Shown here: piece after piece, positions 6,388 to 26,038 of the stretch | How the letters are laid out: each line of letters opens with the position of its first letter | Numbering within the stretch: position 1 is the stretch's first letter | From: an uncultured Acidimicrobiales bacterium | Lineage (GTDB): Bacteria > Actinomycetota > Acidimicrobiia > Acidimicrobiales > SHLQ01 | DNA: 64,000 nt | NCBI GenBank assembly: GCA_938041035.1 | Contig: CALHYX010000003.1 | Span: 1-64,000, forward strand | Direction: 5' to 3' | Notes under the pieces: model-generated | What the model saw: only the letters and a program-made list of their open reading frames with translations | Told to the model about the DNA's origin: nothing | Databases searched by the model: none | Made by a program: the position numbers and the translations under genes

Positions 6388-7152
6388 CTAGTCGCGCGCC
6401 CGGGCGACGCAAAAGAGATGGGCGCTGGAGAACCGTCGGTTGTCGAGCTTTTCGACCCTGCGGATCGCCTCGGTGGGAACGCCGAGCCGGTCGAGCACGA
6501 TGGCGGCCAACGCGATCGGTCGGGCGAAGAACCCGGCGCCGTCGAACGTGGTCACCGAGAACCCGGCATCGTCGAGCAATCGGCGGAGACCGTCCTCGGT
6601 GAAGTGCTCGTGCCAGGCCTTGTCGGCCGACACGTTTCCGACCATCACGTCATCGCCGTACCGGGCGGCGTAGTGGTCGACGCCGTGGCGCCGCTCGACG
6701 TAACGACGGTGCAGTTTCGGGAAGCGAAACTTGAGGTTGTCGACATCGAACACCGACAACGCATGGCGCTTCGGCACGGTGATGATGAGGGTCGCTCCCG
6801 GAACGAGCACCCTGCGCAGCTCGTTGAGCACCTGCGGTTGGTCGTCGATGTGCTCGAGCACATCGAGCATGGTGGCGCTCGTGAAGCGATCGTCGGCGAA
6901 CGGGAGCGGGTCGCCGGGATCGATCGTCACCAGGTCGGCGTCGGTCGGCAGCGCCAGGCCGCGCCCGACCGCTTCGGCCGACACGTCGGTGCCGACGAGA
7001 TCGCCGGGGGACTTCGGCGCCAACGACGCCAGGAACTGACCCTCGTCGCAGCCCATGTCGAGGTGCGCGGCCGTGCCCGTGGGGACGTTTTGCCACGCGA
7101 ATCCGTACCGGTCCGCGTCGTACGGATTACCCGCTTCTACCGCCTGTTTCAC
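6388..7152 (-). CDS. Class I SAM-dependent methyltransferase
   Basis: About 254 residues from the GTG at 7152. The SAM-binding motif I is LDMGCDEGQFL; the acidic strand follows as VGTDVSAEAV, and the post-motif region reads MLDVLEHIDD then LNELRRVLVPGATLIITVP, typical of methyltransferase domain 11/25 proteins. TACCAT lies 7 bases upstream of the GTG, supporting a leaderless transcript from there; an in-frame TTG at 7182 is the alternative. It sits next to glycan genes and is divergent from a second methyltransferase, so a sugar or lipid-linked intermediate is a plausible substrate (inference). Confidence 0.8.
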   Translation of the reverse strand: MKQAVEAGNPYDADRYGFAWQNVPTGTAAHLDMGCDEGQFLASLAPKSPGDLVGTDVSAEAVGRGLALPTDADLVTIDPGDPLPFADDRFTSATMLDVLEHIDDQPQVLNELRRVLVPGATLIITVPKRHALSVFDVDNLKFRFPKLHRRYVERRHGVDHYAARYGDDVMVGNVSADKAWHEHFTEDGLRRLLDDAGFSVTTFDGAGFFARPIALAAIVLDRLGVPTEAIRRVEKLDNRRFSSAHLFCVARARD

Positions 7153-7159
7153 CAATCCG

Positions 7160-7188
7160 ATGGTAGGCCGACGCCCGGCCAACGTCCA
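7160..7188 (-). promoter_or_regulatory. Probable leaderless promoter for the methyltransferase
   Basis: On the minus strand TGGACG (7188-7183), 17 bases, then TACCAT (7165-7160). The GTG at 7152 lies 7 bases downstream. Confidence 0.45.
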
Positions 7189-7273
7189 GATGTTCTTTTT
7201 GGCGCGTGCGACTCCGTTTTGGGAACTCGGACCCCGGTGTGGTCACCGAGTGTGGTCAGAGGCGAATCGGGCC

Positions 7274-7303
7274 TTTCGCTCGGTGGTATCGGGGGAGTAC
7301 CAT
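7274..7303 (+). promoter_or_regulatory. Candidate promoter for the plus-strand glycan operon
   Basis: TTTCGC (7274-7279), 18 bases, then TACCAT (7298-7303). This would give a leader of about 80 nt before the GTG at 7391. The -35 match is weak. Confidence 0.3.
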
Positions 7304-7390
7304 GGGAACTTCAGATGCGTACCAACTCGGCGGGCGCGCGACACGGACAGAAGCAATACGGACCAAGACCCACGTGGCGGCGGAGTACAG

Positions 7391-8053
7391 GTGTCCCAGG
7401 ATTCCTTTGAACGGCGAAAACAAGCGGGCTATTTCGACAACGCCCGCCAGGAGGTCGCGGACCTCGTGCCGACGGGCAACGGTGTCGTGCTCGAAGTCGG
7501 CTGCGCCGCGGGCGCCATGTCGACCCAGCTTCTGACCAGCGGCCGGGCCGGCGCCATCGACGGCGTGGAGATCGAACCGCGCCTCGCCGCGCAAGCCGAG
7601 GGCATCGTGCGCAAGCTCTACGTCGGTGATGTCGACAGCCTGCTGGCCGAGAACGCCTTGACCGGCCCGTACGACGGAGTGCTCGTCGCCGACGTGCTCG
7701 AGCACCTACTCGACCCGTGGCAGACCCTCACGAACCTCGCGGGGTTGCTCAGTGCCGGCGGGTGGGTCGTCGGCTCGATCCCCAACGTCGGTTCGATCCG
7801 TGTGGTCGGCCCCCTCGTAGCTCGCGGCCGATTCGACTACGTCGACGAGCTGATCCTCGACCGCACCCATCTTCGGTTCTTCACCGAGTCCTCCATCCGC
7901 GAGCTGCTCGAAGGCGCTGGGTTCGAGGTCGATCACATGGGCCGGCGCTACATGGGTTCGACCAAACGCTCCGGATGGGTGCCGAAGGCGGCTCGGCTGC
8001 TCGGCCGCTTCGGGGTTGATCAGTTCGTGTTCCGGGCCCGGCTGCCGTCATGA
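7391..8053 (+). CDS. Class I SAM-dependent methyltransferase
   Basis: About 220 residues starting at GTG 7391, with GGAG five bases upstream. Sequence upstream in the same frame has no protein character. Motif I is LEVGCAAGAMS, motif II is GVEIEPRLAA, and VLVADVLEHLLDPW with LSAGGWVVGSIPNVG completes a methyltransferase-11-like fold. The C terminus has FFTESSIRELLEGAGFEV, frequent in sugar-modifying methyltransferases. It overlaps the following glycosyltransferase by 4 bases (ATGA), so it is first in a long plus-strand operon that runs to 14852. Substrate unknown, probably a glycan precursor. Confidence 0.85.
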   Translation: MSQDSFERRKQAGYFDNARQEVADLVPTGNGVVLEVGCAAGAMSTQLLTSGRAGAIDGVEIEPRLAAQAEGIVRKLYVGDVDSLLAENALTGPYDGVLVADVLEHLLDPWQTLTNLAGLLSAGGWVVGSIPNVGSIRVVGPLVARGRFDYVDELILDRTHLRFFTESSIRELLEGAGFEVDHMGRRYMGSTKRSGWVPKAARLLGRFGVDQFVFRARLPS

Positions 8054-9207
8054 CCATGCTCGACACTCAGCTGCTGATCGCAACGCCAACCCTGGGCACG
8101 CTCACCGAGACGTTCATTCACCGGCACATCGCCGGTCTGGCCCCGGGTCAGACCCACGTGATGGCCAAGCGTTGCCAGGGCGAGTTGCCGGCCGCCGCCA
8201 CCTTGTTGCCGTACGGTCGCGCCCGAAACGCCCGACGGATCCTGACCCGCCGTCTCACCTCGGGTCATGGTTGTGGGTGGACGCCACCGCCGGCCGCCCA
8301 TCGTCGGTTCGAGGAACTGCTCGGAGACGAACGGCCCGACGCGATCCTCTTTGAGTACCTCGATCAATGGCTCGACCTGCTCCCGGCCGCCCAACGCTCG
8401 CCGGCGCGGGTCGTCGTGCACTCCCACGGCTATGACCATTCGGCCTGCCTGCGCTGCCCCAAACAACAGGAGCGCTACCGCGAGCTCGACCAGGCCGACC
8501 ATGTCGTCGTCGTCAACCGGGTCGCCGAGGCTCGGCTCGTGGATCTCGGCATCGCCGCCGAGAAGGTCAGCGTCGTGCCCTACGGCGTCGAACCCAACAC
8601 CGAGGCTGACGACCACCCCGGCGCCGGCACGACCCTTGACCCGGCCCGCATCAACGTGGTCTCGATCGGGCGATTCGGGGCCAAGAAGAGCCCCACCTCG
8701 ACGATCTCGGCCTTTGCCGAGGCGCACCGGTCGGTGCCGGACCTCGCCCTCACGATGGCCGGAACCGGCGATCTGCTCGAGGAATGCCAGGAACTCGCGG
8801 TCGCGCTGGGCGTCGAAGAATCGGTGACGTTTCTCGGGCCCCGGCCGCACGGGTTTTGTCGCACGCTGTTGGCATCCGCCGACGTCTTTGCCCTGCACTC
8901 GGTCACCGATCCCATCACGGGCGACGAGGAGGGGCTTCCCCTGGTCATCCTCGAGGCAATGGCGGCCGCAGTGCCGATCGTCTCCACCGTGCACGCCGGT
9001 ATTCCGGACGCGGTGACCGACGGGGTGAATGGGTATCTCGTCCCTGAATTCGACGTGGCCTCGATGGCGACCGCCTTCGTGAAGCTGGCCGAGGACGACG
9101 CCCTGCGCCGCTCGATGGCCGACGCCTCGCTGGCGCGGTACGAGGCGGACTTCACGTGGGATCGCGAACGCACCGAGCTCCTGAACATCCTGGGGCTTCG
9201 CCCATGA
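8050..9207 (+). CDS. Family GT4 glycosyltransferase
   Basis: The protein has 385 residues with a two-Rossmann GT-B fold. The C-terminal donor-binding half has INVVSIGRFGAKKSP, a GTGDLLEEC segment, and the GT4 E-x7-E signature in GDEEGLPLVILEAMAAAVPIV. The start overlaps the methyltransferase stop (ATGA). The operon context (methyltransferases, polymerase, flippase) points to assembly of a surface polysaccharide; it would act on the cytoplasmic face. Donor and acceptor cannot be read from the sequence. Four closely spaced cysteine/histidine positions near residue 130 (SHGYDHSACLRCPKQQ) might bind metal, but this is speculative. Confidence 0.85.
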   Translation: MTMLDTQLLIATPTLGTLTETFIHRHIAGLAPGQTHVMAKRCQGELPAAATLLPYGRARNARRILTRRLTSGHGCGWTPPPAAHRRFEELLGDERPDAILFEYLDQWLDLLPAAQRSPARVVVHSHGYDHSACLRCPKQQERYRELDQADHVVVVNRVAEARLVDLGIAAEKVSVVPYGVEPNTEADDHPGAGTTLDPARINVVSIGRFGAKKSPTSTISAFAEAHRSVPDLALTMAGTGDLLEECQELAVALGVEESVTFLGPRPHGFCRTLLASADVFALHSVTDPITGDEEGLPLVILEAMAAAVPIVSTVHAGIPDAVTDGVNGYLVPEFDVASMATAFVKLAEDDALRRSMADASLARYEADFTWDRERTELLNILGLRP

Positions 9208-10601
9208 CCGACATCGTCGACCCCGTCGAACCGGTGGAGCCCAATCCTTTCGACCTGGGCAATCGGGGCTACGACGACCGGTCGTTCGGCTCGCCCGACG
9301 GGACCGAGCCCGATCCCGGGGACGACGCCGGGTTCTCCTACATTCGGCGCGGCGGTGAGGTCAGCGAGGCGGCCGAACGCCGCACCATGATCGCGCTGGC
9401 CGTCGTCGCGGTCGCCACGACCCTGCCGTTGCGCGGCACGTTCGGCCCGCTGCCCAGTCTGGCCGCCCTGATGGCCGCGCTCGGCTGGATCCACCTGTTC
9501 GGGGTGCGCACCACCCGGCGCAGCAACTCCCTGCTGGGCCCGGCCGTGTACGCCATGGTGCTGGCGCTGTGCGTTTCGTCGGTGGCGTGGAGCTGGGACA
9601 AGCCCGCTTCCATCAATTCCTCGGTATCGATTGCGGTCGTGGGCGCCGTCGGTCTGTACGTGGCCCGCTCCTTTCACCCCGCCGTCGTGCTCAAGTCGAT
9701 GATGATGGGCATCGGCGTGGTCGCCGGAATCTCGGTGCTCACCGAGTTCAATGCCCCGTTCCTCGCCGGCTTCGATTCCGACCCCGGCCAGTTCAACGGC
9801 ATCTACAGCCACAAGAACGAACTCGGCCGGGCCGTGGTGATCGCTACCGGTATGTCGGTGAGCCTCACCTACGCCAAGCGCTACTGGCCGGAGTGGTTGC
9901 AGGGGTGGGATGTCCGCTCGGTGAAGGTCGGGACGGGCACCGTCGTGCTCGGCCTCTTCCTCCTGTGGACGGTGCTCCAGACCCGGTCGGCCACATCGCT
10001 CGTCGCCATCGCCGGCATCGGTGTGGTCACCGTGGTGCTGTTCATCTTCGCTCGGGTGTTCATGTCCGGTGCGTCGGTCGCCGGCGTGACCCTCGTGTTG
10101 TTGGCGGGCGCGGTGGTTCTCACCCCGTTCATCGACCCGCCCGACCTCTCGCCGACCGCGATCGAGGAGGCCATCGGCCGTCAGGGCGGCCGGTCGTCGT
10201 TCGAGGTGCGGCGGGGCATCTGGGCCGACCTCGACGATGAGATCTCCCGCAACGCCACGTTCGGCCACGGCATTGGCTATTTCGACGCTCGCGATACCGA
10301 ATACTGGAACGGCGCCTTCTATGAGGGCATCAGCCTGCGCCAGTCGCATTCGGGGTACGTCCAGACCCTGCTGCAGCTCGGGTTCGTGGGCCTGGCCATG
10401 ATCCTGGGGATCTATCTGCTGGGTTGGTCGCGGGGTGTCGTGTCGGTGTTGCGCCGATCGAGCCTCGTGGGCATCTGGTCGACAACGTTCTTCGCGTTGA
10501 TGTTGGGCATCAACCTCACGTTCAGCTACTTCCTGAACGACGGGTTGCTCGGCTGGATGCTCACGGTGACCACGCTCGCCTGGGCCAACAGCCAGGCTTG
10601 A
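9204..10601 (+). CDS. O-antigen polymerase/ligase-like membrane protein (Wzy type)
   Basis: The product has 465 residues starting at ATG 9204, overlapping the upstream gene by 4 bases. After a polar, acidic N-terminal tail of about 60 residues come about 10-12 hydrophobic segments. The Wzy-type signatures are FNGIYSHKNELGRAVVIATG in the middle and FGHGIGYFD followed by QSHSGYVQTLLQLGFVGLAM near the end. It presumably polymerises lipid-linked repeat units at the membrane. The gene sits between a glycosyltransferase and a flippase, a classic Wzx/Wzy arrangement. Confidence 0.85.
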   Translation: MTDIVDPVEPVEPNPFDLGNRGYDDRSFGSPDGTEPDPGDDAGFSYIRRGGEVSEAAERRTMIALAVVAVATTLPLRGTFGPLPSLAALMAALGWIHLFGVRTTRRSNSLLGPAVYAMVLALCVSSVAWSWDKPASINSSVSIAVVGAVGLYVARSFHPAVVLKSMMMGIGVVAGISVLTEFNAPFLAGFDSDPGQFNGIYSHKNELGRAVVIATGMSVSLTYAKRYWPEWLQGWDVRSVKVGTGTVVLGLFLLWTVLQTRSATSLVAIAGIGVVTVVLFIFARVFMSGASVAGVTLVLLAGAVVLTPFIDPPDLSPTAIEEAIGRQGGRSSFEVRRGIWADLDDEISRNATFGHGIGYFDARDTEYWNGAFYEGISLRQSHSGYVQTLLQLGFVGLAMILGIYLLGWSRGVVSVLRRSSLVGIWSTTFFALMLGINLTFSYFLNDGLLGWMLTVTTLAWANSQA

Positions 10602-10616
10602 ACCCGTGGCCGAACG

Positions 10617-11942
10617 ATGAGCGTGGGCTCCGACACCGACGAGTCCCCGGTGACCGGTGAGGTGAGCGCCACCGGCCGGGCCCGGGCGGCGGTGTCGGGG
10701 AACCGGTCGTTGGTTCGCGGATTCTTCACGTTGCTTGGCGGGTCGGCGTTTCCGCCCGCGCTCGCGTTGGTGACGGCGCCGCTGGTCGCTCGAATGCTGG
10801 GGGTGTCCGGACGCGGCAGTTTGGCCGCCGGGCTGGCGCTCTTCGGCGTGCTCCGGGTGCTCGCCGTCTTCGGTGCCCCGCACGCGTACCTGCATCTCGC
10901 CGACCGGTTGGGCGCCGAACGCTCGGTGCTGCGCCTGGCTCGTTCGACCGTGTTCGGCGCCGCGATCGCCCTCGCGATCGTGACCGCGCTCGCCGCCCCG
11001 TGGCTGTTGTCGGGCGACGATGCCGCCGTCCTCGGCTTCCGGCTCATGGTGGTGGCGCTGCCGTTGGTGGTGGCGAGCGAGGTGGCTCGATCCGCGTTGG
11101 TCCGCCACCACAACTATCGGGCCTCGGCTCGCGCCGACATCACCGGGGCGGTCCTGCGCACCGCATTGATCGTGGCGTTGTATCTCGTCGGCGTCGACAC
11201 GGTTGGCCCGGTGGCGGCGGCGACGATGGTGGCGTTGTTCGTCGGGGCGCTCGTCCTCCAGGTTGGCTTTGGCCGGCTGCCGATCGTCGACGATGAAACC
11301 CTCGCCTCGCGCCAGATTCTGCGAGCGCTCGCCGCACCGCAACTGTTCATCAGTAGCTCCTACGTGGCGCGTATCCTCGCCCGTCGGCTCGACCAGGTGG
11401 TGCTGTTGGCGGTCGCCGGCGATGCCGAGGTCGGGGTCTACGCCGTCGGCGTCGTCGTGGCGGAGGTCGCCGAGTACGCGGGCCGGGCGGTATTCCCGAT
11501 CGCCATGGCCGAACTCGGGCGTACCGAGCGGGAAACCACCCGGCCCGGGTTCCTGGTGGTGGGGGTGGCTGCGCTGACGCTCGTCATCGCCATCGGTCTC
11601 GCGGTGGTTGTGGTTCCGCTCATCCCGTGGGCGTTCGGCGCGGAGTTTGCGCCGGCGCGAAGCGTGACGCTGCTGTTGTTGTTGTCCGCCCCGGTGTTGT
11701 CGGCTCGCGATGCGCTGTCGGTGGCGTTGGTGAGCCGCGGGTTCGTGCGTCGCGATGCGGTCGGTCACTGGATCGGTGCTGCTGCGGGGTTGGCATTGCT
11801 GGTGCCCCTGGCTCGATCCCACGGCGCCGACGGAGCCGCCATCGCCAGTCTCGCCGGCTACGGGGCGGGGTTCCTGGCTCTGCTGGTGTCGGCTCGGCGA
11901 TCGTTTGCCATGATCGATGCCGACGCCCCGATCACCGATTGA
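10617..11942 (+). CDS. Wzx-type polysaccharide flippase (MOP superfamily)
   Basis: 441 residues with about 12 hydrophobic segments. The N-terminal segment LLGGSAFPPALALVTAPLVARMLGVSGRGSLA is typical of oligosaccharide flippases of the MATE/MOP superfamily, with the internal pattern ARRLDQVVLLAVAGDAEVGVYAVGVVVAEV repeated from the family. It would move a lipid-linked repeat unit across the membrane for the polymerase encoded just upstream (15-base gap). One of three such genes in this window. Confidence 0.85.
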   Translation: MSVGSDTDESPVTGEVSATGRARAAVSGNRSLVRGFFTLLGGSAFPPALALVTAPLVARMLGVSGRGSLAAGLALFGVLRVLAVFGAPHAYLHLADRLGAERSVLRLARSTVFGAAIALAIVTALAAPWLLSGDDAAVLGFRLMVVALPLVVASEVARSALVRHHNYRASARADITGAVLRTALIVALYLVGVDTVGPVAAATMVALFVGALVLQVGFGRLPIVDDETLASRQILRALAAPQLFISSSYVARILARRLDQVVLLAVAGDAEVGVYAVGVVVAEVAEYAGRAVFPIAMAELGRTERETTRPGFLVVGVAALTLVIAIGLAVVVVPLIPWAFGAEFAPARSVTLLLLLSAPVLSARDALSVALVSRGFVRRDAVGHWIGAAAGLALLVPLARSHGADGAAIASLAGYGAGFLALLVSARRSFAMIDADAPITD

Positions 11943-14876: not shown

Positions 14877-16019
14877 CTAGGCCGTTTCGCGGTCGCTGCC
14901 GATGCCGAGGTGGGGGCCGAGGCGCCGAACGAAGTTCTCCATGGTGAACTCCAGCGCGCTCTTCTGGATCAACCGCTCATCCCAATCGGTGGCCGTTCCG
15001 GCCTCGATCGTTCGGGCGAGCGTCTGGGGGTTGAGGTCATCGACGAACAATCCGGTCGCCATCTCGGTGACGGTGTCGAGGTAGCCGCCGTAGCGCAGCA
15101 CGATCGAGGGGGTGCCGAAAAGCGACGCCTCGATCGGGGTCAGACCAAAATCCTCATAGGAGATGGCCACGAGCGATGCGGCCTCGGCGTAGAGCCAGCG
15201 CAGTTCGGCCTCGGTGACCGAGCCGAGCAGTTCCACGTTCGGCGGCGCGATCGCCTTCAGCCGGTCGAACTCCGGCCCCGTGCCGGCGATGACCAGGCGT
15301 TCGTTCGGCAGGCGGCGGAACGCGTCGACCGCAACCTCGACGTTCTTGTACGAGATGAGCCGGCTCACCACGAGGTGGAACCCGGGCTCGAGCCCGTGAA
15401 TCGCCTGCGACGGTCCGCATTCGTCGAGGGTGGTCGGGGCGCCGATGACCTCGGCGTCGATACCGTAGGAGCGCCGTACCCGTTGGGCGATGTGGGTCGA
15501 GATCGCCAGGTGGGTGGTGTCCGGGTCGTGGCGGATGGGGCGCTTGTCGAGCGCCTTCATCGCCGGTGCAAGGGCGGCCAGCCCGACCCGGGTGGTGCTC
15601 GACATGCCCGCGAGGTACGGGCTGGGGTCGTACAACCAGCGGGCCGGGGAGAACCAGTACACGACCTTGCGGCCTTCGACCCGGGCGCAGTGTGACCAGC
15701 CCGCGCTCATGCACAGGGTGACGTCGGTGCTGGTGTGCATCGATCGGGCCAGCGCCGGGAACACGGGAAGCAAATGCCGGTGTCGGTGCCGCAGGGCGCC
15801 GAAGGCGTTCAACGGCGAGGTGGTGATCCGCTCGGGATCGAAGCCGCTGTGGGTGGCCCGGGGCTCGAAAAACGTCGTGTGGAGCTGCGCCTGTTGGTAA
15901 TGCTCGAGCAGGGCGAGCAGTACCCGCTCGGCCCCGCCGCGCTGAACCAAATGGTCCGCCACTATCGACAACGATGGAGCTGTCGCCCCCGCTGAACGTC
16001 TCAAAGACCCGCCAGTCAT
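14877..16019 (-). CDS. Family GT4 glycosyltransferase
   Basis: 380 residues from ATG 16019, which has GCGGAG a few bases upstream; a longer in-frame start at 16130 lacks such a site. The N-terminal acceptor domain begins APSLSIVADHLVQRGGAERVLLALL, typical for capsule/mycofactocin-like GT4 enzymes. The donor domain shows FHLVVSRLISYKNVEVAVDAF and the E-x7-E signature YEDFGLTPIEASLFGTPSIVL. It is transcribed alone on the minus strand, convergent to the sulfotransferase operon. Its leader shares motifs with the gene at 18759. Confidence 0.85.
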   Translation of the reverse strand: MTGGSLRRSAGATAPSLSIVADHLVQRGGAERVLLALLEHYQQAQLHTTFFEPRATHSGFDPERITTSPLNAFGALRHRHRHLLPVFPALARSMHTSTDVTLCMSAGWSHCARVEGRKVVYWFSPARWLYDPSPYLAGMSSTTRVGLAALAPAMKALDKRPIRHDPDTTHLAISTHIAQRVRRSYGIDAEVIGAPTTLDECGPSQAIHGLEPGFHLVVSRLISYKNVEVAVDAFRRLPNERLVIAGTGPEFDRLKAIAPPNVELLGSVTEAELRWLYAEAASLVAISYEDFGLTPIEASLFGTPSIVLRYGGYLDTVTEMATGLFVDDLNPQTLARTIEAGTATDWDERLIQKSALEFTMENFVRRLGPHLGIGSDRETA

Positions 16020-16035
16020 AATCTCCGCCTTATAC

Positions 16036-16068
16036 CTTTCCGCCAGTAAGGCCCGCATTGAGGCAACC
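16036..16068 (-). promoter_or_regulatory. Upstream element shared with the 18759 gene
   Basis: On the minus strand GGTTGCCTCAA (16068-16058) precedes ACTGGCGGAAAG (16047-16036). The same 11-mer and TGGCGGAAAG lie upstream of the start at 18759 (18823-18813 and 18779-18770). The second part also precedes the start at 39177. Confidence 0.35.
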
Positions 16069-16112
16069 AGTACGGCCCGCGGAGCCAAAGATAGCAGATC
16101 TCCAACCACGAT

Positions 16113-16127
16113 GAGACATCTTGTCTC
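16113..16127. promoter_or_regulatory. Inverted repeat GAGACA-TCT-TGTCTC
   Basis: A perfect 6-bp inverted repeat with a 3-base spacer lies in the divergent region between the GT4 gene and sufB. It could be an operator; the protein is unknown. Confidence 0.35.
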
Positions 16128-16145
16128 CAAAAATGCTCACGCTGC

Positions 16146-16252: not shown

Positions 16253-16280
16253 TAATATTCCTATCTGCATAGGAGAAATT
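16253..16280 (+). promoter_or_regulatory. sufB promoter with suf operator (CCTAT-N4-ATAGGAGAAAT)
   Basis: The -10 box TAATAT (16253-16258) is followed by the inverted repeat CCTAT-CTGC-ATAGG (16260-16273) and AGAAATT. A loose -35 (TTCAAA, 16231-16236) lies upstream. Transcription would start inside the repeat, so a bound repressor would block it. Sites of the same design precede sufD (20013) and the minus-strand sufC (25986). Confidence 0.65.
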
Positions 16281-16307: not shown

Positions 16308-17717
16308 ATGAGCACGACCGATGACCTTGGCCTCGATCTCAGCCGCTACAAGCTGGGCTGGAGCGATAAGGAAGACTACGTCTACAAGCCCAAGAAGGGC
16401 ATCGATGAGAACATCATCCGCGAGATGTCGTGGATGAAGGGCGAGCCCGACTGGATGCTCGACTTCCGGCTCAAGTCGTTCAAGCGGTTCGAGAAGCGGC
16501 CGATGCCCCACTGGGGCGGCAACATGGACGGCATCCACTTCGACGACATCTTCTATTACATCAAGCCCACCGAGGCGATGACCGACTCCTGGGACGACGT
16601 GCCCGAGGCGATCAAGGACACCTACGAAAAGCTCGGCATCCCCGAGGCCGAACGCGAGTACCTGGCCGGGGTCACCGCCCAGTACGAGTCCGAGGTCGTG
16701 TACCACCGCAACCGCGAAGACCTCGAAGAGCGCGGCGTCATCTTCTCCGACATGGACACCGCCCTGCGCGAGTATCCGCAGTTGGTGAAGCAGTACTTCG
16801 GCAAGATCATCCCGCCGAACGACAACAAGTTCTCCGCCCTCAACTCCTCGGTGTGGTCCGGCGGCTCGTTCATCTACGTGCCCGAGAACTGCGACATCCA
16901 GGATCTGCCGCTCCAGGCCTACTTCCGGATCAACGCCGAGAACATGGGCCAGTTCGAACGCACCCTGATCATCGCCGACAAGGGCTCGAAGGTGCACTAC
17001 ATCGAGGGCTGTTCGGCGCCGGTGTACACCTCGGACTCGCTGCACTCGGCCGTGGTAGAGATCGTGGTGAAAGAGGCCGCCCGGGTCACCTACACCACCA
17101 TCCAGAACTGGTCCTCGAACGTGTTCAACCTGGTCACCAAGCGGGCCCGGGTCGAAGCCGAAGGCCACATGGAATGGATCGATGGCAACATCGGCAGCCG
17201 GCTCACCATGAAGTACCCCGGCGTCGTCATGGTGGGACCCAAGGCCTCCGGCGAGGTGCTCTCGGTCGCTTACGCCGGCCCCGGTCAGCATCAAGACACC
17301 GGAGCAAAGATGGTGCACGCGGCGCCCGAGACCTCGTCCAAGATCGTGTCGAAGTCGATCTCCAAGGACGGTGGCCGCACCAGTTACCGCGGTCTCGTGC
17401 ACGTCGATCCCGAGGCCTACGGCTGCAAGAGCCATGTGCAGTGCGACGCCCTCATCCTCGACGACGAGTCGATCAGCGACACCTACCCCTACATGGAGGT
17501 CGGGTCTTCCGATGCGGTCATTGGCCATGAGGCCACGGTCAGCCGGGTCGCCGACGATCAGCTCTTCTACCTCATGAGCCGCGGGCTCACCGAGGAACAG
17601 GCGATGGGCATGGTGGTCAACGGCTTCATCGAGCCGATCACCCGCACCCTTCCCATGGAGTACGCGGTCGAGTGGAGTCGTCTGATCGAGCTGCAAATGG
17701 AGGGCTCGGTCGGCTGA
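16308..17717 (+). CDS. sufB: Fe-S cluster scaffold subunit SufB
   Basis: 469 residues, the usual length for SufB. It forms the SufBCD complex on which [4Fe-4S] clusters are built in the cytoplasm. Visible family landmarks are [10 protein letters not shown] near residue 51, [13 protein letters not shown] in the middle, [20 protein letters not shown], and [16 protein letters not shown] near the C terminus, which contains the conserved cysteine region, followed by [21 protein letters not shown] precedes the ATG at 16308. Unlike usual actinobacterial suf operons, the downstream gene is not sufD: a small Cys-rich gene and two minus-strand genes intervene. Confidence 0.95.
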
Positions 17718-18928: not shown

Positions 18929-19972
18929 CTAGAGGGTGGCGTACAGCTCGTTGTAGGCGTCGCCGATGGCCGGCCACTCGAACCGGCTCACGTCGGGTAG
19001 GCCCGAGCGCGGTGCGAGCGCCCAGCGGCACAGGTCGTCGAGCTTGTCGGCGGTGATGTCGCCCGCGAGCGTGGCCACCCATTCCTCGCCGACCACGTCG
19101 GTCAGGAAGTCGGCCTGCGGTCCCGGACTCATCACCACCGGTAACCCGTGGGTGAGGGAGAGCAACGCGGCGGCCGAGGTGAAGGCTTCGGCTTGGAGGG
19201 CGATGGCGGCGTGGCCGGCGACCAGCACCTCGTGAATCCGGTCGGCCTCGGCGTAGCCGTACTCCGTGGTGACCGCGTCGGTTCGGGCGGTGATGCGATC
19301 GAGCTCAACCCGCACGTCCGGGTCCTTGTCGAGCCCGATGATGTCGAGCCGGATGCGACCGGCCCCGAGCGTCTCGGCCGCCGTTCCCAACTCGACCAGG
19401 CGCTTGTACGGGGCGATGCGGCCGGCGGCGACGAACACCACGGGCCCGCCATCGGCGTCGGGGTGCGCCGGGCGCGGCGGGCCAAACCGGGTGACGCCGA
19501 TGGGGATGAGGGTCTTGGGCACGCCGGTGAGCTCGGGGTAGCGGTCGTCGAGCAACCGGTCGTGGCCGCCGGACAACAACACGACGTGGTCGGCCATCCC
19601 CAGGATCCTGCGGTAGCCCCATCGTTCGCGCCGGCTCTCGAACCCGTCGTGGGGCGCCAGGTTGTGCGCCGTGTAGACGAGCGGAAATCCTCGCAACCGC
19701 AACAGCGCGACGACCGCCAGGCCCCACAGCGCCTTGGCGACGCGCTTGGGTGCGTTGGCCAGGATGGGACGCATCACGTACTCGGGCCAGTGGATGTGAA
19801 CGATGCGGCGCGGGCCCAGCAGCCGGCGAGGGGTGAGCGCCTCCATCGCGATGCCGTGGCCCCGCAGTTCGCCGGCGAGGTCGTGGATGTAGTCCGAAGG
19901 CGTTCGGTCATCGGGGGCCGGGTGCCAGAGCACGGTCCGGGTGCTCGAAACCGGTGTTTGCGGGCTCGTCAT
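18929..19972 (-). CDS. GT4-like glycosyltransferase
   Basis: 347 residues from ATG 19972. The N-terminal domain has IVHIHWPEYV and FPLVYTAHNLAPHDGFE, common in GT4 enzymes of glycan clusters. The donor domain has VVFVAAGRIAPYKRLVELG and DIIGLDKDPDVRVEL; the final EAFTSAAALLSLTHGLPVVMS replaces the usual E-x7-E loop. TACACT lies 9 bases before the ATG, so the transcript is nearly leaderless. The gene is divergent from sufD, and the suf operator at 20013-20026 lies about 40 bases upstream of its start, so it may be co-regulated with Fe-S genes. Confidence 0.75.
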   Translation of the reverse strand: MTSPQTPVSSTRTVLWHPAPDDRTPSDYIHDLAGELRGHGIAMEALTPRRLLGPRRIVHIHWPEYVMRPILANAPKRVAKALWGLAVVALLRLRGFPLVYTAHNLAPHDGFESRRERWGYRRILGMADHVVLLSGGHDRLLDDRYPELTGVPKTLIPIGVTRFGPPRPAHPDADGGPVVFVAAGRIAPYKRLVELGTAAETLGAGRIRLDIIGLDKDPDVRVELDRITARTDAVTTEYGYAEADRIHEVLVAGHAAIALQAEAFTSAAALLSLTHGLPVVMSPGPQADFLTDVVGEEWVATLAGDITADKLDDLCRWALAPRSGLPDVSRFEWPAIGDAYNELYATL

Positions 19973-20012
19973 ATTCGCCGAAGTGTACCGCGTCCGATGC
20001 CACCGATTTTCT

Positions 20013-20028
20013 CCTACGCCGATAGGAT
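20013..20028 (+). promoter_or_regulatory. sufD suf operator overlapping a leaderless -10 box
   Basis: CCTAC-GCCG-ATAGG (20013-20026) is an inverted repeat with one mismatch, and its left half extends to TTTTCTCCTAC, matching the ATAGGAGAAAT half-site of the other suf units. TAGGAT (20023-20028) is a good -10 box; the GTG start at 20035 lies 6 bases on, implying a leaderless mRNA. A clear -35 is not seen. Confidence 0.6.
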
Positions 20029-20034
20029 TAATCG

Positions 20035-21267
20035 GTGCTCAACCCTGCAGAATCAGCTGCGTTGCCCGGCCCGGAATGGCTTGTCGAACGCCGCCGCGCC
20101 GCTGCCGAACGGCTCGCGAATCTCCCCGTGCCCACCGTCGAAGAAGAGGTCTGGCGCTACAGCCGGATCGGTGAGGTCGACTTCGAGTCTCGGCCGGCGA
20201 CGACGGTCGCCGGACCGGCCCCGGCCGACATCGCCCTCGCCGACACCACTCCGGCTGCGGTGGTCAAGGTGGCCAACGGCTTCGTGGTCGATATCGCGGT
20301 CGCCGACGACGCCGTGTTCTCGCTGCGAATCGCGGGCGACGACGACGCCGCGGCCCTCGACCGCTTCGACAACCACGATGTGGTCACCGCGATCAACGAC
20401 GCGGCGGCCCCAACCCCGCTGATCCTCGACGTGCCTCGGTCCAAGACGGTCGAAGGGCCGATCCTGATCGTGCACGAGAACTCCGCCGTCGGGGCCACCG
20501 TGGCCAGCCGCCTGGTCGGATCCATCGGCGAGGACGCCGAGGTCACCATCATCGAGCATCGCACCTCCACCGCCGGCGACCAGCTGGTCATCCCGATGGT
20601 CGAAATCGATGTGGCTCAGGCCGCCCGGGTCACCTACCTCGACGTGCAGCGCCTGCACACCGATACCTGGCAACTGGGCCAGCTGTCGGCCAGCGTCGGC
20701 GCCCAGGCTACGGTCACCATGTCCCAGGTTGGGCTCGGCGGTGGCTACGCCCGCATGCGCGCCGACTGCCGACTCGTCGGGCGCGGGGCCACCGGCAATC
20801 TCGCCGCCATGTACTTCGGCGACGAGGACCAGACGCTGGATTTCCGCACGTTCCAGGATCACCTGGCCCCCGACACCACCAGCGACCTGCTTTTCAAGGG
20901 TGCCGTCGGCGGTCACGCCCGTTCGGTGTACAGCGGTCTCATTCGGGTGGCTCCCGAGGGCGCCGGCACCAACGCGTTCCAAACGAACCACAACATCAAG
21001 TTGTCCGAGCACGCCCAGGTTGAATCGGTTCCGAACCTCGAGATCGAAAACGACGACGTGCGCTGTAGCCACGCCTCCACGGTGGGCCCCATCGATGCGG
21101 ATCAGCGCTTCTATCTCGAGTCCCGCGGCGTACCGCCGACCGAAGCCGAGCGGCTGGTCGTGAGCGGGTTCTTCGATGAGGTGCTGCACGGCTTCCCCTA
21201 CGGGTCCGTCGTCGACGCCCTCGTGCGCGGCGACATAACGACCAAGCTCGACCGGAGGTTCACGTGA
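20035..21267 (+). CDS. sufD: Fe-S cluster assembly protein SufD
   Basis: 410 residues from GTG 20035. SufD pairs with SufB and SufC2 in the cytoplasmic scaffold complex and is linked to iron acquisition. The beta-helical core and the family C-terminal signature are clear: GHARSVYSGLIRVAPEGAGT, then TNHNIKLSEHAQVESVPNLEI, then DVRCSHASTVGPIDADQRFYL and SRGVPPTEAERLVVSGFF. The stop overlaps the Rieske gene by 4 bases. The N-terminal region WLVERRRAAAERLANLPVPT is the helical cap usual for SufD. Confidence 0.92.
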   Translation: MLNPAESAALPGPEWLVERRRAAAERLANLPVPTVEEEVWRYSRIGEVDFESRPATTVAGPAPADIALADTTPAAVVKVANGFVVDIAVADDAVFSLRIAGDDDAAALDRFDNHDVVTAINDAAAPTPLILDVPRSKTVEGPILIVHENSAVGATVASRLVGSIGEDAEVTIIEHRTSTAGDQLVIPMVEIDVAQAARVTYLDVQRLHTDTWQLGQLSASVGAQATVTMSQVGLGGGYARMRADCRLVGRGATGNLAAMYFGDEDQTLDFRTFQDHLAPDTTSDLLFKGAVGGHARSVYSGLIRVAPEGAGTNAFQTNHNIKLSEHAQVESVPNLEIENDDVRCSHASTVGPIDADQRFYLESRGVPPTEAERLVVSGFFDEVLHGFPYGSVVDALVRGDITTKLDRRFT

Positions 21268-21620
21268 CCGAAACCGCAACGCCCGGCGCCGACCCGGTTC
21301 GGATCGGCGCGGTCGCCGACTTCGATGTCGACAGCGCCCGACGCATCGACATCGACGGTCACCGGGTGGCCGTCGTGCGGATCGCCGACGACTTCTACGC
21401 GATCGGCGATCAGTGCAGCCACGCCGACGTCTCGCTCGCCGAAGGCGACGTCGACACCGACGAGCTCGCCCTCGAATGCTGGAAGCACGGCAGCCTGTTC
21501 TGCCTGAAGTCCGGCGAGGCGTTGACCCTTCCGGCCATCCGTCCGGTCCCGGTGTACACCGTGACCGTCGACGGCGACGATGTGCTTCTGGGCCTGGGCA
21601 CCGAGGAGGCCTCCCGATGA
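21264..21620 (+). CDS. Rieske-type [2Fe-2S] ferredoxin
   Basis: 118 residues. The Rieske ligand motifs are CSHADVSLAEG (Cys-X-His) and ECWKHGSLFCL (Cys-X2-His), as in non-heme-iron oxygenase ferredoxin subunits. The fold is the small beta-sandwich type, with no signal peptide, so it is cytoplasmic. In several actinobacteria a Rieske protein lies within the suf operon between sufD and sufC, as here; it is proposed to be an electron donor, but its role is unproven. It overlaps both neighbours by 4 bases. Confidence 0.9.
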   Translation: MTETATPGADPVRIGAVADFDVDSARRIDIDGHRVAVVRIADDFYAIGDQCSHADVSLAEGDVDTDELALECWKHGSLFCLKSGEALTLPAIRPVPVYTVTVDGDDVLLGLGTEEASR

Positions 21621-22420
21621 CGGAGCTGGTAATCGAAGGGCTGCGAGCCCGCGTCGGCGGCACCGAGGTGCTCCAGGGCGTCGACATCACCGTGCGCAGC
21701 GGCGAGGTGCACGCGGTCATGGGGCCAAACGGTTCGGGAAAGTCGACCCTCAGCCATGTGCTGATGGGGCGCCCCGGCTACGAGGTCACCGGAGGTACCG
21801 CCAGGCTCGACGGCGTGGACCTGCTCGGGCTCGAGACCTGGGAGCGGGCCAAGGCCGGGTTGTTTCTCGCCATGCAGTACCCGATCGAGGTGCCGGGCGT
21901 GTCGCTGGTCGACATGCTCGAGAGCTCCGCGGTCGCCGCGGGTCGTGATCGCTCGGCCGTCAGCGCCGAGTTGGCCGCCGAGGCCGACCGCATCGGCTTC
22001 GATCGCCGGTTCCTCGACCGCGCCCTCAACGTCGACCTGTCCGGCGGCGAACAGAAGCGCAACGAGACCCTGCAGATGGGTGTTCTCAACCCCGCGATCG
22101 CCATCCTCGATGAGCTCGACAGCGGCCTCGACGTCGACGGTCTGCGCACGATCAGCGAGCACATCGAGGCGGCGACGAACGCCACGCGGGGCGATCGCGA
22201 CCCGCTCGGCGTACTCGTGATCACGCACTACAGCCGCCTCCTCGAGCAGTTGCGCCCCGACGTGGTCCACGTCCTGGCCCAGGGGCGCATCCAGACCACC
22301 GGAGGTCCGGAGTTGGCCGACGAACTCGAACGCACCGGGTACGCCGAATGGACGGCCGCACCGGCAGCGGCATCCGCCCCGGACCCGATGGCGGACCCGT
22401 TCGCGGACCCCCTCGCCTGA
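21617..22420 (+). CDS. sufC: Fe-S assembly ATPase SufC (copy 1)
   Basis: 267 residues from ATG 21617, which overlaps the Rieske stop. ABC ATPase landmarks are Walker A GPNGSGKST, the SufC-specific signature LSGGEQKRNETLQM, Walker B AILDELDSGLDVDGL, and the switch histidine in VITHYSRLLE. It is a soluble ATPase that drives the SufBD scaffold. The C terminus carries an extra Ala/Pro/Asp tail (APDPMADPFADPLA) absent from copy 2 (25213-25968). The two copies share the ABC core but differ markedly between the motifs. Confidence 0.9.
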   Translation: MTELVIEGLRARVGGTEVLQGVDITVRSGEVHAVMGPNGSGKSTLSHVLMGRPGYEVTGGTARLDGVDLLGLETWERAKAGLFLAMQYPIEVPGVSLVDMLESSAVAAGRDRSAVSAELAAEADRIGFDRRFLDRALNVDLSGGEQKRNETLQMGVLNPAIAILDELDSGLDVDGLRTISEHIEAATNATRGDRDPLGVLVITHYSRLLEQLRPDVVHVLAQGRIQTTGGPELADELERTGYAEWTAAPAAASAPDPMADPFADPLA

Positions 22421-23436
22421 TGCGGGTTCTCGTCACCGGCGCAGCCGGCTACATCGGTTCGCACTCGTGTGTGGAGTTGGCTCAGGCCGGCCACGAGGTC
22501 GTCGGTATCGACAACTTCAATAACTCCTATCCCGCGGCCGTCGAGCGCATGAACGAGGTCGCCGGCACCGAGATCGTCGTCCACGAGGTCGACCTGACCG
22601 ACCGCGCGGCCACCCGCGCCGTGTTCGAGCAGGCCCAGCCCGAGGCCGTCGTGCACTTCGCCGCTCTCAAGGCGGTGGGCGAGTCGGTCGAGCAGCCGCT
22701 CGAGTACCAGCGGGTCAACATCGGCTCCACCGTCTCGATCGGCGAGGCCATGAACGCCGTCGGCTGCAAGAAGATGATCTTCTCGTCGTCGTGCACCGTC
22801 TACGGCGAGCCCCAGTGGACCCCGGTCGGCGAGGATCACCCGCTATCGGTGATCAACCCCTACGGGCGCACCAAGCTGCAGATCGAGAACCTCCTGCGCG
22901 ACGCCGAGGTGGCCTACGGCTGGAACTCGATCTGCCTGCGCTACTTCAACCCCGTCGGCGCGCATCCCAGCGGCCGCATGGGAGAGGCGGCCAAGGGCAC
23001 GCCCGTGAACCTCATGCCGTTGGTGCTCGCCGCGGCCAACGGCACCCGCCCGCCGGTCAAGGTGTTCGGCGACGACTACGACACCCGCGACGGCAGCGCC
23101 ATCCGCGACTACCTGCACGTGGTCGATCTCGCCCGGGGACACGTCGCCGCGGTCGAGGCCGCCGGTGAAGATGCCGGCTGGGATACGGTCAATCTGGGCA
23201 CCGGCACCGGAAGCACCGTGTTCGAGGTGATCAACACCACCGCCGAGGTGCTCGGCACGGAGGTGCCGCACGAGGTCGTCGGTCGCCGACCGGGCGACGC
23301 CGCCGCGGTGTACGCCGATGCCAGCAAGGCCGCCGAGACGCTCGGCTGGCGCGCCGAACGCACGCTGCGCAACATGATCGCCGACCAGCAGGCCTGGGAA
23401 CAGGCGATCGTCGCCGACGCCGACTTCGGGCGTTAG
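22420..23436 (+). CDS. galE: UDP-glucose 4-epimerase GalE
   Basis: 338 residues from ATG 22420, sharing one base with the sufC stop (TGATG). It interconverts UDP-glucose and UDP-galactose in the cytoplasm, supplying galactose for surface glycans. Visible are the NAD-binding VTGAAGYIGSHS at the N terminus, SSSCTVYG with the catalytic Ser/Thr, the NPYGRTK motif with catalytic Tyr and Lys, and the GalE-type IRDYLHVVDLARGH. Its tight coupling to the suf operon is unusual; the gene could also be read through from sufD. Confidence 0.92.
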   Translation: MRVLVTGAAGYIGSHSCVELAQAGHEVVGIDNFNNSYPAAVERMNEVAGTEIVVHEVDLTDRAATRAVFEQAQPEAVVHFAALKAVGESVEQPLEYQRVNIGSTVSIGEAMNAVGCKKMIFSSSCTVYGEPQWTPVGEDHPLSVINPYGRTKLQIENLLRDAEVAYGWNSICLRYFNPVGAHPSGRMGEAAKGTPVNLMPLVLAAANGTRPPVKVFGDDYDTRDGSAIRDYLHVVDLARGHVAAVEAAGEDAGWDTVNLGTGTGSTVFEVINTTAEVLGTEVPHEVVGRRPGDAAAVYADASKAAETLGWRAERTLRNMIADQQAWEQAIVADADFGR

Positions 23437-23498: not shown

Positions 23499-23981
23499 TC
23501 AGCTGACCGCGGGGTGTTCGTCGATGCCCTGGAGCAGGGTGTTCCAGCCGAGCGTGGCGCACTTGATCCGTACGGGGAACTTCACGACCCCGCGCATGGC
23601 TTCGAGGTCGCCCATCGGGAACTCGGCGTCGACGATCGAGTCGGCTTCGGACTCCGATCCGTCGCCGCCGATCTCCCTTTCGTGGATCGACATCATCGAC
23701 TTGAACGAGCTGGTCAGCTGCTGGACCTCGTCGATGGTCTTGCCCTTGACCGCGGCCGACATCATCGAGGCGGACGCCATCGAGATCGAGCAACCCTGGC
23801 CGCCGATCTTCACGTCGGTCACGACGCCGCCCTCGTCGATGTCGAGGAACACCACGACCTCGTCGCCGCACAGCGGGTTGAACCCCTCGGTGCGCGTCGC
23901 CGGCTCGCCCAGCTCGCCCCGGTTTCGCGGCGAACGATAGTGGTCGATGATGATTTCTCGGTAGAGATCTTCGAGGCCCAT
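23499..23981 (-). CDS. sufU: SufU-type sulfur-relay/scaffold protein
   Basis: 160 residues. SufU is a zinc-dependent sulfurtransferase that accepts persulfide from SufS. The three ligand cysteines appear as NPLCGDEV, GGQGCSISMASASMM and IKCATLGWNTL, with the Asp of CGD as fourth ligand. It starts 8 bases after the sufS stop on the minus strand, giving the order sufC-sufS-sufU. The length fits the actinobacterial SufU proteins. There is no paaD/sufT gene after it in this window; galE converges on it instead. Confidence 0.92.
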   Translation of the reverse strand: MGLEDLYREIIIDHYRSPRNRGELGEPATRTEGFNPLCGDEVVVFLDIDEGGVVTDVKIGGQGCSISMASASMMSAAVKGKTIDEVQQLTSSFKSMMSIHEREIGGDGSESEADSIVDAEFPMGDLEAMRGVVKFPVRIKCATLGWNTLLQGIDEHPAVS

Positions 23982-23989
23982 GGTGACTC

Positions 23990-25216
23990 CTAGAGGGCGA
24001 ACATATCGGCGGCGCTCAGCGTGTCGGCGAGGGCGTCGATATCGGATTCGTCGTTGTAGAGGTACAGCGAAGCGCGCGTGGTGGCGTTCTCACCCAGCAC
24101 CTTCATCAGCGGCTTGGCGCAATGGTGGCCGGCTCGCACGCAGATGTTCTGCTCGTCGAGCACCTGGGCGATGTCGTGGGGGTGCACACCCTTGTAGGTG
24201 AACGAGAATACGCCGCCCCGACTCGCCGGCTCCGACGGCCCGTGGATCGTGATGTCGTCGCCGTGGCGCTCGGTGAGGGTGCGCATGGCGTAACCGGTGA
24301 GCGAAACCTCGTGTTCGCGGATGGCTTCCATGCCGACGGCGCTCAGGTAGTCGACCGCAGCACCGAGCCCGACCGCGGCATCGACGGCCGGGGTGCCCGC
24401 CTCGAACTTCCAGGGCAACTCGGTGGTCGTGAACCCCTCTTTGGTGACGTTGAGGATCATCTCGCCGCCGCCGAGAAACGGCGGCATGGCCTCGAGGAGT
24501 TCGGTACGCCCCCACAGCGCGCCGATGCCCATGGGGCCGAGCATCTTGTGGCCGGTGAAGGCGACGAAGTCGGCCCCCATCGCCTGCACATCGGTCGGCA
24601 GGTGGGGTACGTGTTGGCTGGCATCGACGATGACGGTGGCGCCGGCGGCATGGGCCAGCGCGCTCAGCTCGGCGACCGGCGTGATCGTGCCCAGCACGTT
24701 CGACATGGCGGTGAACGACAACAGCTTTGCTCCGTCGAGCAGACGGTCGATCTCGCGCAGATCGAGCTGGCCGTCGGGGGTGATCGGAATCCAGCGGAGC
24801 TCGATGCCGCGCTCGGCGGCCAACATGTGCCAGGGGACGATGTTGGCGTGGTGTTCCATCTCGGTGAGCACGACGGCGTCGCCTTTGCCCAGGTTGGCCC
24901 GGCCCCAGGTCTGGGCGAGCAGGTTGAGCAGCTCGGTGACGTTCTTGGCAAAGATCACCTCGTGGACCGCCGGCGCGTTGATGAACCGGGCGACCTTGGC
25001 TCGGGCCCCTTCGAGTGCCTCGGTGGCCTCGTGCGCGAGCTTGTAGCTACCGCGGTGCACGTTGGCGTTCGAACGCTCGTAGTACTCGGCCATCGCGTCG
25101 ATGACCATCTGCGGTTTCTGCGAGGTGTTGGCCGAGTCGAGGTAGATGAGCGGCTTGTCGTCGAAGGTGCGGGCCAGGACGGGGAAGTCGGCCTTGTGGC
25201 CGGCGAGCGGGCTCAC
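23990..25216 (-). CDS. sufS: Cysteine desulfurase SufS
   Basis: 408 residues from the GTG at 25216, which overlaps the sufC stop by 4 bases. It removes sulfur from cysteine using PLP and hands it to SufU. Visible are the substrate-binding YLDSANTSQKP, the PLP-Asp region ATVIVDASQHVPHL, the Schiff-base lysine in FVAFTGHKMLGPMGIGALWG, and the catalytic cysteine in VRAGHHCAKPLMKVLG, which identifies group II (SufS/CsdA) enzymes. The open frame continues upstream to 25585 but that extension is a shadow of sufC. Confidence 0.93.
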   Translation of the reverse strand: MSPLAGHKADFPVLARTFDDKPLIYLDSANTSQKPQMVIDAMAEYYERSNANVHRGSYKLAHEATEALEGARAKVARFINAPAVHEVIFAKNVTELLNLLAQTWGRANLGKGDAVVLTEMEHHANIVPWHMLAAERGIELRWIPITPDGQLDLREIDRLLDGAKLLSFTAMSNVLGTITPVAELSALAHAAGATVIVDASQHVPHLPTDVQAMGADFVAFTGHKMLGPMGIGALWGRTELLEAMPPFLGGGEMILNVTKEGFTTTELPWKFEAGTPAVDAAVGLGAAVDYLSAVGMEAIREHEVSLTGYAMRTLTERHGDDITIHGPSEPASRGGVFSFTYKGVHPHDIAQVLDEQNICVRAGHHCAKPLMKVLGENATTRASLYLYNDESDIDALADTLSAADMFAL

Positions 25217-25968
25217 GCGGTGCGCCAGGCGTCGTAGCCGTCGGCTTCGACCCGCTCGACCAGTTCCATACCGCCGCTTTCGACGATGCGGCCGTCGAGC
25301 AGGATGTGCACGTGGTCGGGGCGTAGGTGCTCGAGGAGCCGTTGGAAGTGGGTGATGACGATCACGCCGAGTTCGGGGCGGTCCTTGCGCACTTCCTGCA
25401 CGCCGTTGGCGACGGTGCGCAGCGCGTCGATGTCGAGCCCGGAATCGGTCTCGTCGAGGATGGCGATCTCGGGTTCGAGCATGGCCATCTGCAGAACCTC
25501 GTTGCGCTTTTTCTCGCCGCCGGAGAACCCTTCGTTCAGGTAGCGGTCGGCGAACGCCGGGTCGATGTCGAGGCGTTCCATCCACTCCATGATCGAAACC
25601 CGCAGCTCCAGAACCGAAAGATCGAAGCCTTTGCGCGCCGACAGTGCCTGGCGCAGGAAGTTGATCACCGAGACGCCGGCGATTTCCTGGGGGTGCTGGA
25701 AGGCGAGGAACATGCCGGCCTTGCCCCGCACGTCGGCCGACCAGTCGGTGATGTCGTCGCCGCGAAAGCTGATCGATCCGGCGGTGACCTCGTATTCGGG
25801 GCTGCCGAGCAGGCTGGAGGCAAGGGTGGACTTCCCACAGCCGTTCGGGCCCATCAGCGCGTGCACCTCGCCTTCCTCGACGGTGAGGTCGATGCCCTGG
25901 AGGATGTCGGTGCCGTCGCCGCCGGCGGCAGCTGCGCGCAAACCGGAGATCTCAAAGAGGGGAGCCAT
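25213..25968 (-). CDS. sufC: Fe-S assembly ATPase SufC (copy 2)
   Basis: 251 residues from ATG 25968; an in-frame TTG at 25974 would add two residues. Walker A is GPNGCGKST, the signature FSGGEKKRNEVLQMAM, Walker B AILDETDSGLDIDAL, and the switch region VITHFQRLLE. This is the canonical SufC sequence type, closer to the family norm than copy 1 (DETDSGLDIDAL versus DELDSGLDVDGL). It heads the minus-strand sufC-sufS-sufU operon. Which copy serves SufBD cannot be told from the sequence. Confidence 0.92.
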   Translation of the reverse strand: MAPLFEISGLRAAAAGGDGTDILQGIDLTVEEGEVHALMGPNGCGKSTLASSLLGSPEYEVTAGSISFRGDDITDWSADVRGKAGMFLAFQHPQEIAGVSVINFLRQALSARKGFDLSVLELRVSIMEWMERLDIDPAFADRYLNEGFSGGEKKRNEVLQMAMLEPEIAILDETDSGLDIDALRTVANGVQEVRKDRPELGVIVITHFQRLLEHLRPDHVHILLDGRIVESGGMELVERVEADGYDAWRTA

Positions 25969-25974
25969 GGGCAA

Positions 25975-26003
25975 AGTCTATTTGCACTATGGCCATAGGA
26001 GAA
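25975..26003 (-). promoter_or_regulatory. sufCSU promoter with suf operator
   Basis: On the minus strand TTCTCC (26003-25998) and TAGACT (25980-25975) are 17 bases apart, and the ATG at 25968 lies 6 bases after the -10, so the mRNA would be leaderless. The inverted repeat CCTAT-GGCC-ATAGT (25999-25986) fills the spacer, and its strong half reads ATAGGAGAAAT on the plus strand, as at sufB. Confidence 0.6.
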
Positions 26004-26038
26004 ATGTCGGCGGCCAGGTTTTTCGCCGAATTTCCCGG

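Follow-up and report, generated by a model that had tools for sequence, protein, structure and literature searches.

How are the suf genes controlled in a bacterium in which they do not stand together? The suf operon is normally compact, and the split seen in the window, by which we mean the whole 64-kb stretch of DNA analysed here, is unusual. Three genes on it score over the cut-offs of their family models, namely sufB (16308-17717, plus strand; TIGR01980, 708 bits), sufD (20035-21267, plus strand; TIGR01981, 229 bits) and sufC (25213-25968, minus strand; TIGR01978, 303 bits). A Rieske-type ferredoxin gene (21264-21620, plus strand; PF00355) overlaps the end of sufD and probably belongs to the same unit. 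On the minus strand, sufS (23990-25162; TIGR01979, 524 bits, over cut-off), the start codon of which is uncertain, and a sufU or NifU_N scaffold-like gene (23499-23981; PF01592) are probably co-transcribed with sufC. Genes of polysaccharide type stand among the suf units between 14877 and 26854; they comprise glycosyltransferase genes (14877-16130 and 18929-19972), a GDP-mannose-dehydratase/epimerase-like gene (22348-23436) and a WecG-type gene (26039-26854). Several relatives encode another SufB, second or alternative, with about 42% identity (G002:C162, G006:C21, G008:C30 and G037:C6).

The preliminary description of this DNA had proposed that one inverted repeat serves as a shared control site of the three units. 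Reading the sequence directly gives CCTATCTGCATAGG at sufB (16260-16273), CCTACGCCGATAGG at sufD (20013-20026) and ACTATGGCCATAGG at sufC (25986-25999), which are exactly the repeats and positions it had listed. The pattern MCTAYNNNNATAGK occurs in the 64 kb at these three places only (0.01 expected), and the extended half-site RTAGGAGAAAWT, which had also been claimed for all three, is confined to them within the window when up to one mismatch is allowed (0.05 expected). Markov-shuffled windows gave no match at scores at which the real window gives six, that is, three sites on two strands. The complete element, about 28 bp long, forms an imperfect palindrome in which the half-site AATTTCYMCTAY flanks a 4-bp centre. 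At sufB it reads TAATATTCCTATCTGCATAGGAGAAATT (16253-16280, dyad centre 16266/16267) and aligns with the conserved sufB operator of relatives, ATTGTTACTATSNNSRTAGKRGAAAT; at sufD it reads ATTTTCTCCTACGCCGATAGGATTAATC (20006-20033, dyad centre 20019/20020) and ends just 5' of the GTG start at 20035; at sufC, in the sense of that minus-strand gene, it reads CATTTCTCCTATGGCCATAGTGCAAATA (25979-26006, dyad centre 25992/25993). None of the three is assigned a strand, and the sufD and sufC copies have homologous sites at the same genes of relatives.

The comparison covered the sufB loci of 40 genomes (the window's own and relatives) and of 80 named contigs, almost all of which bear the label Acidimicrobiia or Actinobacteria. 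Most of them carry (A/G)(A/G)TTGTTACTATSNNSRTAG(G/T)(A/G)G(A/T)AAT(T), usually 24-105 bases 5' of the sufB start; in one relative (L066) the operator reads AATTACCACTATCCTGATAGTGGTAATT. CTA-N6-TAG served to select the sites of relatives; the TT/AA arms lie outside that selection rule and are about 95% conserved. Two of the contigs, CAMDCI010000190.1 and CAMDVC010000152.1 (L077 and L089), are titled 'Bifidobacterium breve' and carry an acidimicrobial-type sufB with the operator; these titles look wrong. The same operator precedes sufD and sufC of relatives. Derived from the sites at sufC, sufD and the regulator gene, each half-site takes the form ATTtcYMCTAY, more strictly so in the gene-distal half; the suf-promoter element is of the type ACTAY-N4-RTAGT. 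A profile built from 56 sufB-promoter sites, all from other genomes (R1), detects the operator in 23 of the 40 genomes and, across 198 genomes sampled from the order, in 135; the sufB copy is the best match, and many genomes also have the copies at sufD and sufC. When the phylum was sampled, the same profile found it in 12 of 18 Acidimicrobiia and in none of 179 other actinobacteria.

Specificity within genomes is equally sharp. Against the 4.9-Mb genome from which the window comes, R1 returns only the three suf sites (E 0.0013, 0.013 and 0.049), and a symmetric profile from which the window sites were left out (R2) returns the same three at E<=2 and nothing further; with thresholds of E<=10 for R1 and E<=2 for R2, no other target of the operator was found in this genome. 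The strict pattern CCTAYNNNNATAGG matches genome-wide at sufB, at sufD and at one unrelated place, and its reversed control pattern nowhere. The unrelated match (contig 11:47002, CCTACACTCATAGG) is without the outer AATTT/AAATT arms and unmatched by both profiles, and it was taken as chance. Run at E<=2 on 12 whole genomes, which make up about 48 Mb, R2 finds two to four distinct sites per genome, and all 38 can be assigned to sufB, sufD, sufC or the divergent promoter between mrp and a regulator gene. Over all fetched loci, 126 of 128 distinct sites lie at sufB, sufD, sufC, mrp/regulator or sufS; of the other two, one sits behind sufB where a contig ends and is probably a sufD site, and one is weak and has no assignment. 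A chance origin of the sites is thereby excluded, and the three suf units carry one operator that is real and class-wide across Acidimicrobiia. The shared control site of the preliminary description is thus strongly supported: the motif is conserved near Fe-S genes across the order, is specific to them genome-wide, and lies over the promoter.

On the promoters themselves the preliminary description, which had seen the repeat overlapping or lying between predicted -10 and -35 boxes, is on weaker ground. A sigma-70 promoter scan found no consensus promoter at the sufB, sufD or sufC sites; what can be recognized in the sequence are TANNNT hexamers in consistent placement. The candidate -10 of sufB, TAATAT (16253-16258, plus strand), was missed by the consensus scan and would set the start at about 16265, so that the operator would cover both -10 and start. 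The candidate -10 of sufD, TAGGAT (20023-20028, plus strand), lies in the proximal half of the operator, an arrangement that matches TAGGAT/TAGAAT in the sufD and regulator promoters of relatives, and transcription is predicted to begin at the GTG, which would give a leaderless mRNA. Likewise, the candidate -10 of sufC, TAGACT (25975-25980, minus strand), abuts the operator at its downstream edge, with the ATG at 25968 as predicted start of a leaderless mRNA. A protein bound over or against the -10 would block the polymerase, which points to a repressor, and repression is therefore the likeliest mode of control. In relatives a clear TGTTACTAT lies within the sufB operator. Compared with them, the sufB -10 of the window appears to have moved about 6 bases upstream (TAATAT, not TACTAT) with the palindrome unmoved, and this shift (16253-16264) seems to leave the left half of the operator largely without promoter sequence.

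Which protein could read this operator? The non-suf sites of relatives lie between mrp/apbC, the gene of an ATPase that carries Fe-S clusters, and a divergent helix-turn-helix (HTH) gene, which is often followed by a gene for a NifS/IscS-type cysteine desulfurase. At E<1e-60 an orthologue of the HTH gene turns up in 21 of the 40 genomes, including the window's own, where it lies on contig 23 (80880-81587), again divergent from mrp. Its product of 236 aa matches HTH_20 (PF12840) over the cut-off and MetOD1 partially. Three cysteines, Cys185, Cys198 and Cys231, are invariant in 20 orthologues and are spaced C-X12-C-X32-C, with X12 constant and X32 found in most. In 11 of these 21 genomes the operator overlaps the -10 of the regulator gene itself, which is typically TAGAAT, and a GTG start mostly follows a few bases later. 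The regulator promoter of the window's own genome has a -10 (TACACT) and no operator, and that of a genome of the same family (G005) also has no operator, so self-control is not general. In the 12 whole genomes (E<=2), this SufR-like regulator is the only transcription factor whose gene stands under the operator. The preliminary description had noted that the window holds no sufR or Rrf2-type gene, and indeed the only strong Rrf2 protein is encoded on contig 8 and the SufR-like protein on contig 23; it had also called for an Fe-S-sensing regulator without naming one, and the mrp-linked HTH_20 protein now gives this role a specific candidate, for which Fe-S sensing is suggested by its cysteines. 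The AlphaFold model of the regulator is confident for the winged helix and poor for the C-terminal half (mean pLDDT 64), a sequence search of the PDB gave no match, and a fold search returned only winged helices of ArsR/SmtB and similar types (E>=6e-3, none at E<=0.001); with such a model and such matches, no conclusion is rested on structure. Several relatives (L183, L187-L191) encode other HTH proteins with C-X13-C, a third cysteine about 30 residues further on and the motif HPNTVRPHLERMRDVGLL, possibly another Fe-S-sensing regulator. This second family (L183-L191) was considered as reader of the operator and set aside, as no operator lies nearby.

Operator and regulator occur together. Among the 40 genomes, 21 have both, 2 the operator only, none the regulator only and 17 neither (Fisher p 1.9e-9), and among the 198 genomes of the order the corresponding numbers are 123, 12, 18 and 45 (odds 25.6, Fisher p 4.8e-19); these p values ignore shared ancestry and hence overstate the evidence, while the direction is clear. 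Two genera (g4 and g5) of the window genome's own family have neither. Incomplete assemblies and strict filters may explain some of the mismatches, that is, the 12 of 135 operator genomes without a detected regulator and the 18 regulator genomes without the operator, though not surely all of them.

Taken together, it is very likely that the three sites are the operators of one suf regulon and that a dimer of the mrp-linked SufR-like regulator encoded on contig 23 binds them, as judged from sequence comparison. Rrf2 proteins commonly control Fe-S genes, and the genome encodes a strong one (contig 8, 49551-49982) of IscR/RirA/CymR-like kind with a C-X5-C cysteine pair in its C-terminal half. Of the two protein types that the preliminary description had proposed to test, Rrf2 and SufR-like, the second is favoured. 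The distribution of the Rrf2 gene over the 40 genomes (21 with both, 2 with the operator only, 6 with Rrf2 only, 11 with neither) fits worse than that of the SufR-like regulator: Rrf2 occurs without the operator in G003, G006, G008, G010, G034 and G038, and the operator without a detected Rrf2 in G002 and G005. Moreover, none of the 29 Rrf2 loci fetched has an operator-like site nearby, and in the 12 whole genomes no match at E<=2 falls at any Rrf2 gene. Control by Rrf2 is thus very improbable, and on co-occurrence and the promoter scan it was rejected as the operator's regulator. The Rrf2 gene itself is conserved and lies downstream of lspA and rluD-like genes (in the window's own genome, L004 and L222).

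It could also be asked whether the operator belongs to a third transcription factor and the SufR-like gene is just one more member of that factor's regulon, since some operator-bearing genomes have no detectable gene for the regulator and the regulator promoter of the window's own genome has no operator. This is unlikely, because operator and SufR-like regulator are lost together, the 12 whole genomes have the operator at no other transcription factor gene, and the domain layout and cysteines of the regulator match a known type of Fe-S regulator. Hardly any weight can be given to a reading of the element as conserved promoter core or leader RNA hairpin rather than protein operator, even if its left half at sufB of relatives is an extended -10, TGTTACTAT. 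The palindrome is conserved on both sides, beyond any -10; at sufC the element lies upstream of the -10, and at sufD and the regulator gene it has the -10 in its opposite half; most of the element would accordingly stay out of the transcript. In addition, its distance to the sufB start varies over the whole range of 24 to 105 bases, and it is missing from genera that are without the regulator.

If the mrp-linked protein is the regulator, its relation to known families has to be considered. Cyanobacterial SufR represses suf, carries an Fe-S cluster in its C-terminal part and controls its own gene from a separate site. Its model (TIGR02702, SufR_cyano) matches the window genome's regulator weakly, at 25.3 bits, and those of relatives at 19-39 bits against a cut-off of 178.8, which places them outside the family; that cut-off is strict, as canonical actinobacterial SufR also stays under it (up to 129 bits). 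No canonical SufR was found in the window's own genome. In a tree, canonical SufR and the mrp-linked regulators fall on opposite sides of a branch with 100/100 support and a length of 1.87, and some genomes, such as G112, encode both. The broad SufR-type layout, a winged HTH followed by the ligand pattern C-X12-C-Xn-C, is nevertheless present in the mrp-linked regulator, and it shares several traits with the SufR of Mycobacterium tuberculosis (Rv1460), Streptomyces avermitilis and Corynebacterium glutamicum: a winged-helix N-terminus, C-terminal cysteines with C-X12-C, suf targets, an operator over -10 and start, and, in many genomes, self-regulation. The differences are as consistent. The cysteines used by M. 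tuberculosis SufR, C203, C216 and C244, are spaced C-X12-C-X27-C (PMC6034842), whereas the second spacing is 32 here. The published SufR operator is CAAC-N6-GTTG, overlapping -10 and start (PMC8593673, PMC11995493), as it does in S. avermitilis (PMC11995493), whereas the CAAC/GTTG half-sites of actinobacterial and cyanobacterial SufR are absent from the suf-promoter element, the half-site of which surrounds 4 bp. Finally, the regulator gene adjoins mrp and not the head of suf, and the regulon is spread over three units and mrp. With ArsR/HTH_20 winged-helix regulators the protein shares the DNA-binding domain PF12840, but it has in addition a C-terminal domain with the three conserved cysteines and the partial MetOD1 match; IscR/Rrf2 regulators perform the same Fe-S task in many bacteria, but belong to a different protein family. 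Therefore, the mrp-linked regulator looks as if it works like SufR, yet it is no SufR by the family's own sequence tests. Literature searches that paired Acidimicrobi* with SufR, or iron-sulfur cluster with Acidimicrobiia and suf, found nothing. The protein that probably acts on the operator is a distant SufR cousin not linked to it before.

The most likely mode of action is that of an Fe-S-sensing repressor at the -10/start region, although DNA binding, repression and sensing are all inferred from sequence features. When clusters are sufficient, the regulator would hold an Fe-S cluster on its three C-terminal cysteines, and the cluster-loaded dimer would occupy the palindrome over -10 and start, by which sufB, sufD with the ferredoxin gene, and sufC-sufS-sufU would be repressed. 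The three cysteines suggest release on loss of the cluster: when clusters are scarce or damaged, the regulator would drop its cluster and leave the operator, and transcription would rise. In many relatives the same operator would also govern the regulator gene and the divergent mrp/apbC Fe-S carrier.

A further genome of the order (G139) may show how such a system can change. It carries a canonical-looking sufR-sufB-sufC-sufD cluster (L275, about 6496-11002) with a divergent SufB of 42% identity, and both the operator and the mrp-linked regulator are not among its matches; the whole system has apparently been replaced by a canonical-type cluster. It is likely that Acidimicrobiia run a family of Fe-S regulators of their own, which is neither SufR nor Rrf2, has a separate operator code and serves a regulon of scattered suf units and the mrp Fe-S carrier, and that at least one relative has swapped it for an operon of canonical SufR type. 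For an entire class of environmental actinobacteria, a concrete operator, its regulon and a specific gene can now be named, and with them comes a natural case in which an Fe-S regulator and its operator are jointly lost, kept or replaced.
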